NCBI GenBank assembly: GCA_026414765.1
Contig: JAOAIJ010000013.1
Location: 1-52,679, forward strand
Source: Clostridia bacterium
Lineage (GTDB): Bacteria > Bacillota > Clostridia > Acetivibrionales > DSM-27016
Reading direction: 5' to 3'
DNA: 52,679 nucleotides
The notes beneath the pieces are model-generated. The model saw only the letters and a program-made list of their open reading frames with translations. It did not search any database and was not told the origin of the DNA. Positions 9,250 through 10,580 of the stretch are shown piece after piece. Position numbers and translations under genes: made by a program. The stretch's first letter is position 1; each line of letters opens with the position of its first letter.

Positions 9250-10254
9250 TTACATAGCTACCAGGAATATATATGAAATGAAAATCCCATAAAACACCCC
9301 GCCAAAAATTAATGGAATGGGGTTAAGCTTTCCTTTGAATTTGATCCATAAAAAAGTCACTAAAGCAGAAAGTATGGCTAAAACCGCACTTACTACAGCT
9401 ACAGTGTCCAATTTCCAATTTGTAGCCAGTATACCAATAGTAACGGGTATGCAGCTTTGAAATACCATAGCTCCAGTTATGTTTCCTAATGCCAGCGTAT
9501 CTTTTTTCTTGCTTATCCATATTATGCTATTGAACTTTTCCGGTAATTCCGTTGCGATAGGAGCTATTATTAGTGAAAGTATTAATGCAGGCAGCCCAAA
9601 CATTTCCGATAAGTTCTCAATTATACCTACAAACAAGTGTGCACCAAATACTATGCCTGTAAGGGCTAATAGTATCTGAAATATTATCACGCCAAGGTTT
9701 GGCTTCATATTGAAAATTTTGATAATATATAGATTCTCTAATTCCGAGTGACTTGCCTGATCGTTTTTTACAGTCAGCATTATGTAGTATATATAGTATG
9801 CCACCAGAAAAACGGCTATAACATATCTTATTAACAAAATATCTATGAAACTCGCTGCAAGACCTAAACTGTAAACTATAATAAAGAAGCCAATATCACG
9901 GCCCAAAACCTTGTTGTTTACAAACATTTCAATACCTGTTTTTCTCCTCTTTCTGAATACAAGTACACTTATACCTGTCAGAAAAAATGCCAGAGTACTG
10001 AGCATAAAAGGAGCTCCCATAATAGCTCCTATTCCAATATCCTCTGAAGCACCCGATTTCCCCGAAAACAATATAGCTATTACTGGAATCATTGTTTCAG
10101 GAAGGCATGTACCTACTGCTGAAAATATGCTTCCTACTACCCCATCTCCCAAATTAAGCTTTTTGCCCAGCCACTCAATACCGTTTGTAAAAAGTTCACA
10201 ACTTAATAGAATTACCGCCAGACTTAAGACCATCCCCAAAATATCCATTAACAC
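9250..10254 (-). CDS. Ca2+/cation antiporter, CaCA (sodium:calcium exchanger) family
   Basis: 334 residues, about 10 membrane segments. The two alpha-repeats of the CaCA superfamily are visible: GVVGSIFSAVGTCLPETMIPV near residue 40 and LSLIIAPIATELPEKFNS near 230, each with the acidic residue that binds the cation. These transporters exchange Ca2+ (or Mn2+, or other cations) for Na+ or H+. The upstream leader carries a probable yybP-ykoY motif (10468-10540) and a terminator. These are used in other bacteria on Mn2+ exporters and on related CaCA proteins, so manganese or calcium export is the best guess. Family certain, ion inferred. Confidence 0.88.
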   Translation of the reverse strand: MLMDILGMVLSLAVILLSCELFTNGIEWLGKKLNLGDGVVGSIFSAVGTCLPETMIPVIAILFSGKSGASEDIGIGAIMGAPFMLSTLAFFLTGISVLVFRKRRKTGIEMFVNNKVLGRDIGFFIIVYSLGLAASFIDILLIRYVIAVFLVAYYIYYIMLTVKNDQASHSELENLYIIKIFNMKPNLGVIIFQILLALTGIVFGAHLFVGIIENLSEMFGLPALILSLIIAPIATELPEKFNSIIWISKKKDTLALGNITGAMVFQSCIPVTIGILATNWKLDTVAVVSAVLAILSALVTFLWIKFKGKLNPIPLIFGGVFYGIFISYIFLVAM

Positions 10255-10321: not shown

Positions 10322-10407
10322 AAAAAAACTTCTAACATAATCCCACATTCTAAAAGTTGTTGTTCTCTAAAAATAGAGCCGCACCTTTTATGGAATTATG
10401 TTAAAAG
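10322..10407 (-). terminator. Long leader terminator upstream of the cation antiporter
   Basis: Minus-strand outer stem of about 16 bp, CTTTTAACATAATTCC with GGGATTATGTTAGAAG, followed directly by seven T. Inside are two smaller pairings (AAAAG/CUUUU and CUCU/AGAG). It sits between the aptamer and the start codon, as expected for the expression platform of a transcriptional riboswitch. Confidence 0.8.
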
Positions 10408-10467
10408 TCTCGTTTCCTGGTAATAAGTTACTCTGTACAATTACAGTGAATCAAGAGTATAACTCAT

Positions 10468-10540
10468 AAAGGTTGCAAAGCCAGGCTAAAGTCTATCCTT
10501 AACCAGTGTGTTGACTATGCAATTCAAACTACTCCCCTTT
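10468..10540 (-). promoter_or_regulatory. Probable yybP-ykoY (manganese) riboswitch aptamer
   Basis: Minus strand begins AAAGGGGAGTAG (10540-10529), the hallmark 5' loop of this class. It closes with CTGGCTTTGCAACCTTT, whose CCTTT pairs with the initial AAAGG. An inner stem GGTTAA / TTAGCC holds the second arm. The class senses Mn2+ and generally turns on cation-export genes. The gene downstream is a CaCA antiporter, a known type of target. A good promoter lies directly upstream and a terminator downstream. The match is by eye; internal loop residues differ somewhat from the B. subtilis examples. Confidence 0.7.
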
Positions 10541-10550
10541 AACAAAGATA

Positions 10551-10580
10551 ATATTACACTATGTCTTATATATTTGTCAA
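10551..10580 (-). promoter_or_regulatory. Promoter of the riboswitch-controlled cation antiporter
   Basis: Minus strand TTGACA (10580-10575), 18 bp, TAATAT (10556-10551). The transcript would start just before the aptamer at 10540. Confidence 0.65.

Follow-up and report, generated by a model that had tools for sequence, protein, structure and literature searches.

Which signal governs the exchanger gene at 9250-10254 on the minus strand of contig JAOAIJ010000013.1, and what does its product transport? The window, that is the whole 52,679-nt stretch of this contig to which all positions refer, carries both the leader and the gene on the minus strand, on which all features below are read; the gene has a GTG start and encodes a 334-aa exchanger of the CaCA superfamily (PF01699), a predicted Mn2+ exporter. 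The original prediction had placed a promoter, a manganese aptamer and a long terminator in front of a cation antiporter gene. All of them were located, at 10580-10322, between a 96-aa ORF (10906-10616) and the exchanger gene (10254-9250). We consider, with a probability of roughly nine in ten, that this leader belongs to the yybP-ykoY class of Mn2+ riboswitches, acts as a transcriptional ON switch, is devoid of P2, has a long P4 and controls a CaCA-type Mn2+ exporter.

Architecture of the leader

The promoter-like site is of the sigma-70 type (10580-10551), with TTGACA at 10580-10575, an 18-nt spacer and TAATAT at 10556-10551, and it matched 10 of 12 consensus positions in the promoter scan; such sites numbered four in 501 bases, both strands included, for a mean of 1.9 in shuffles. 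Seven bases past the promoter, at 10544, TGTTAAAGGGGAGTAG begins, and with it the aptamer, which extends from P1.1 to P1.1 (10544-10399). The intrinsic terminator follows at 10411-10322; its stem (10411-10389 with 10347-10325) overlaps the T7 run, or U-tract, at 10328-10322. A simple terminator scan, which accepts only loops of 3-8 nt, gave no site here, the loop being long and branched. None of 200 shuffled sequences folds as well as the leader does (z -3.75), a difference mainly due to the terminator; the MFE fold alone is the terminator state, not the aptamer, and constitutes no evidence for P1.1.

A covariance search with RF00080 had been suggested as a check. It did return a match in place, at 10549-10383, with E = 0.0019 in 451 nt, but with 19.6 bits the score lies under the curated gathering cut-off of 45, and the scan of the whole window over Rfam gathering thresholds did not report RF00080. 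This cut-off is a poor refuter, since the E. coli mntP leader, which is reported to sense Mn (PMC9603457), scores only 41.6 bits in the same setting and is likewise under it; it is set by curation and does not describe the RNA itself. The printed RF00080 consensus (Rfam 15) leaves the 5′ GGGGAGUAG stretch unpaired, and the P1 switch helix is therefore not modelled. Elsewhere RF00080 performs: in 14 control genomes it matched in three at E ≤ 0.001, in five at E ≤ 1 and in nine at E ≤ 10, a limit at which chance matches are expected; its cut-off was passed by two of the 14 at every E limit.

A search of the 58 genomes of the window's order found the exchanger in 36. Leaders were read among 30 fetched CaCA loci, some of them short at contig ends, and the same RNA is present in two of these (L008 and L009); a third (L007) retains its 3′ part only. 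From L008, L009, the window and two more copies of its own genome we built R1, a model of 103 positions, whose match in the window (10396-10544) is thus that of a training sequence.

In the window, the 5′ strand of the P1.1 switch helix, TGTTAAAGG (10544-10536), pairs with 10407-10399, and seven of the nine pairs show changes on both sides among the aligned relatives. The L1 loop is formed by GGAGTAG (10535-10529), in which the A at 10533 corresponds to A10 and to its A-minor contact, and by GAGA (10411-10408), of which the A, G and A are invariant in 51 of 51 sequences and the first position is G in 27 and A in 24. P3.1 (10522-10513 with 10482-10473) and P3.2 (10504-10499 with 10489-10484) are among the helices of the covariation analysis, and the L3 loop AACACACT (10512-10505) carries at 10509 the Mn2+-contacting A (A48 in X. 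oryzae, A41 in L. lactis). The residues to which structures from these two organisms assign roles in the metal site and in docking (PMC6754395) are all in place: A10 (10533), A48 (10509) and G66 (10482) are each invariant in the 51 aligned sequences, and C44 (C10513) is kept in 50 of them.

The named structure (P1, P3, P4) is paired in 92.7% of the cells of 51 aligned sequences, in an alignment that was fitted to R1 and is hence biased toward the R1 structure. Changes on both sides were found in 24 of the 30 pairs, and none of 500 shuffles reached any of the five measures; sliding the partners by one to three columns brought the pairing down to 31-53%. The alignment comprises 51 of the 54 R1 matches from the order, the five training sequences included; L117, L120 and L121, in which the GGGGAGTAG core is damaged or absent, had been omitted beforehand.

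The leader thus shares with known yybP-ykoY members (RF00080; L. lactis yoaB, X. oryzae, E. coli mntP) the GGGGAGUAG and GAGAC of L1, the discriminator A of L3, the C44-G66 A-minor receptor and a P1.1 held in common with a terminator; the TerC, GDT1 and ATPase targets of the class are also found among its relatives. It differs from them by the absence of P2, by its lengthened P4 and by its low RF00080 score. Only 3-6 nt stand in the place of P2 in 47 of the 51 sequences, the window included, and a P2 hairpin is present in the other four. The window aptamer therefore lacks the four-way junction that the solved structures show and would form a three-way junction. This four-way junction is not taken as class-defining, because the metal site sits in L1 and L3. 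The P4 arm (10472-10416; fold of -8.8 kcal/mol) has a loop of 53 nt, whereas the loop measures 1-19 nt in all but one of the 50 other aligned relatives; the exception, L072, comes from the same genome, precedes a GDT1 gene and has a 49-nt loop. With this expanded arm the second half is not short, contrary to the original prediction, and the term compact applies only in that the P2 hairpin is missing.

Relatives of the leader and the genes behind them

Searches over more than 40 genomes, with R1 as with RF00080, in the order as in the class, used stricter filters, so that all the resulting counts are lower bounds. In the order, R1 gave at least 54 matches at E ≤ 0.05 in at least 31 of the 58 genomes, the five training sequences included; RF00080 gave none above its cut-off in the 58. 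TerC, GDT1/MneA and P-type cation ATPases are usual targets of yybP-ykoY riboswitches. Flanks were fetched for 53 of the 54 matches, the window serving for its own copy, and the downstream ORFs were grouped by BLAST, 20 representatives being scanned with Pfam and the rest assigned by group. TerC lies downstream in 19 loci (in L106 as a 75-aa piece only), GDT1 in 12 and a P-type cation ATPase in 10 (L116 and L118 with pieces only), which makes 41 of 54, or 46 when the five with CaCA alone are counted. TerC and MneA are described as usual targets of the class (PMC13274385). CaCA genes follow six of the matches, one of them behind GDT1; this last pair, behind copy L087, is likely one operon. These six lie in six of the 36 CaCA-bearing genomes of the order, and in the other 30 no R1 match was found at a CaCA gene.

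The other eight loci precede genes for MacB-type ABC transporters (three) and, once each, VTT/DedA, Zn_peptidase_2, an amino-acid permease, a carboxyltransferase and a 135-aa protein. The MacB-linked copies are L075 (G000:C42:89214-89312), L077 and L122, the assignment coming from Pfam for L075 and for the L122 ATPase and from grouping for L077. The 135-aa protein, behind L074 (G000:C26:17818-17915), has no Pfam match and is followed by a DUF4015 protein.

In the class, R1 matched at least 90 of 391 genomes at E ≤ 0.001, whereas RF00080 matched at least 31 of the 391 at this limit and none above its cut-off. Annotation by the RF00080 cut-off thus misses such leaders in the class. Among 25 class-level R1 loci outside the order, taken with 1.5-kb flanks, an ATPase relative was found in 13, GDT1 in six, TerC in two and a Zn peptidase in one, three having none of the nine query proteins nearby; a CaCA relative within 1.5 kb was found in none of the 25. 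R1 gave only 13.9 bits on E. coli mntP and, at E ≤ 0.1, missed seven of the 12 CaCA leaders that a core pattern finds (see below). It therefore represents the compact form rather than the class in its entirety.

We also surveyed CaCA genes directly, in the genome records of the loci of the best 80 of 409 relatives, 78 of which have at least 150 nt upstream. R1 gave five confident leaders in these 80, L150, L152, L154, L166 (Clostridium aminobutyricum) and L168, and reached L178 with E = 0.88 only. The core pattern matched 12 of the best 80, namely the five of R1 together with L174, L178, L191, L193, L209, L224 and L229, and was absent from the other 68. This pattern was tightened after the first matches had been seen, a looser 3′ end, GAGA[CT], having taken in L150, so that the figure of 12 in 80 was not obtained blind. 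Moreover, L123, L124 and L087 reappear here as L150, L152 and L154, the first two being R1 training sequences; three of the 12 thus duplicate loci of the order and nine are new lines of evidence. In 50 dinucleotide-shuffled sets the core pattern was found in 0.08 loci on average and in one at most, and in 589 kb of control sequence (downstream regions and reverse strand) it matched in two loci. With RF00080 (E ≤ 0.5 or 1), three of the 12 leaders were reported, all under its cut-off (L154, 32.5 bits; L174, 27.8; L191, 23.7), and none of the other nine. Two candidates were rejected: L203, whose match begins 843 nt upstream, has GAGACG at its end and does not fit the tightened pattern, and L004, which gives 9.3 bits with RF00080 and in which no aptamer could be read.

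A tree of 81 CaCA proteins, built by a quick method, requires nine changes of the riboswitch label, and its well-supported branches force at least five of these; with shuffled labels the mean is 12.3, and only two of 500 cases manage with as few as nine. The link between riboswitch and CaCA gene is recurrent and not general. It is a minority arrangement, since the pairing is missing from 68 of the 80 surveyed loci, from 30 of the 36 CaCA-bearing genomes of the order and from all 25 class-level loci.

Tentatively, and with rather less than even confidence, we would extend the interpretation: P2-less Mn2+ riboswitches with a three-way junction may form a large subclass in this class of bacteria, unseen by the Rfam cut-off, one target of which may be a CaCA subfamily of dedicated Mn2+ exporters rather than Na+/Ca2+ exchangers. 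We make no claim that the P2-less form is undescribed.

Switching, ligand and transported ion

The terminator uses the 3′ strand of P1.1 (10407-10399) as part of its own 5′ arm (10411-10389), and the P1.1 and terminator folds exclude each other. Energies were calculated for folds without metal. With the RNA ending at 10396, the aptamer lies no more than 0.5 kcal/mol from the optimum; the gap is 4.6 kcal/mol for an end at 10370 and 0.5 kcal/mol for one at 10345; once the RNA extends to 10322, the terminator is better by 12.5 kcal/mol. A kinetic, co-transcriptional choice has been described for L. lactis (PMC11087558), and the energies calculated for the window would fit a choice of this kind.

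We infer Mn2+ binding, the ON direction and Mn2+ export from the class to which the leader belongs. At low Mn2+, pairing of 10411-10389 with 10347-10325 would terminate transcription. When Mn2+ is high, docking of L1 and L3 around Mn2+ and Mg2+ would hold P1.1 (10544-10536 with 10407-10399) closed and block the lower stem of the terminator. RNA polymerase would then read on into the exchanger gene, whose product would lower cytoplasmic Mn2+. The cell thus probably makes the exchanger at manganese excess and pumps manganese out.

The manganese reading made at the outset finds support in the intact metal-site residues, the covariation, the overlap of P1.1 with the terminator and the TerC, GDT1 and P-type ATPase genes behind the relatives. 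Could the same fold serve another ligand? A yybP-type variant for another divalent ion, such as Ca2+, would be in keeping with the CaCA annotation, and one review deems yybP variants sensing other divalent ions likely (PMC7266159). Furthermore, the discriminator A is followed in the window by C, a base that two of the 51 aligned sequences have at this position (T in 25, A in 22, G in 2). However, both the discriminator A and the A-minor contacts are preserved. The L3 loops of the six CaCA-linked leaders, four of which read CAACAT[AC]CTGG, the window having CAACACACTGG and the damaged L117 CAACATTCCGG, closely resemble those of the GDT1-linked leaders, 10 of 12 of which read CAACATACTGG. In Bordetella pertussis, the CaCA gene is stated, as 'data not shown', to be expressed alike whether or not calcium is added (PMC8546581). 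We regard a change of ligand as improbable.

There is a similarly small chance that the riboswitch has decayed, its aptamer being dead and the terminator alone damping expression. Orthologous leaders of decayed appearance occur among the relatives: L117 (G032:C49) is without its GGGGAGTAG half, and L006 (G001, Anaerobacterium chartisolvens; identity with L151) retains, on reading, a terminator-like remnant only. The window copy itself has an unusual P4 and one U-U mismatch in P3.1. However, its core residues are intact, the extra length sits at the tip of P4, remote from L1 and L3, and a second copy of the same genome, L072, has a long P4 as well. That the leader is an ordinary attenuator or a protein-binding leader, for instance for a LicT/BglG antiterminator, with a chance likeness to the aptamer, is hardly credible: bglG-cis-reg gives 21.9 bits over the terminator, above the bits of RF00080, but is far under its own cut-off of 80 (E = 0.13) and was rejected as sub-threshold, and the Mn2+ class agrees with what is seen of conservation, covariation and gene context, the covariation making an attenuator very unlikely.

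If the leader is a Mn2+ riboswitch, as we favor, what of its target? The exchanger matches PF01699 in two stretches with 93.6 bits (cut-off 24.9; E = 1.5e-26), and its match to TIGR00367, the calcium/sodium antiporter model, is of 83.9 bits, under the curated 179.65. The Na+/Ca2+ exchanger NCX_Mj (MJ0091) belongs to the same family, and its central glutamates align with those of the window protein (E54/E53 and E213/E239), but the similarity is weak (best E = 3.9e-07) and S77, S210 and D240, which we take to be ion-site residues, are replaced by A81, E236 and Q266. These replacements would be in keeping with another substrate, and are no proof of it.

A precedent has been reported in Bordetella pertussis: BP3410, a calcium:cation antiporter, is Mn-induced under a yybP-ykoY riboswitch and its functional form exports Mn (PMC8546581). 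As predicted for the window, a CaCA-superfamily exchanger stands there under a Mn2+ riboswitch; BP3410 comes from a betaproteobacterium, unlike the window. Mn2+ export by the window exchanger appears more likely because of this case, of the recurrent link in other lineages and of the likely operon with GDT1. Mn2+ export is thereby a suggested function for a CaCA subfamily whose relatives are labelled calcium/sodium antiporters in databases.

Other RNA elements in the window

Three further leaders were noticed, the genes behind them being named by reading. Tandem glycine riboswitch aptamers (33480-33318 (-), 53.0 and 49.6 bits) stand directly before the ORF 33212-32136, read as serC (358 aa) and followed at 32080-30458 by serA (540 aa); since glycine aptamers precede serC and serA, glycine may control serine synthesis at this locus. 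A T-box leader (16621-16424 (-), 118.6 bits) precedes the 879-aa ORF 16359-13720, read as an alanyl-tRNA synthetase, and a PyrR binding site (623-520 (-), 59.7 bits) precedes the ORF 427-2, which is uracil permease-like.
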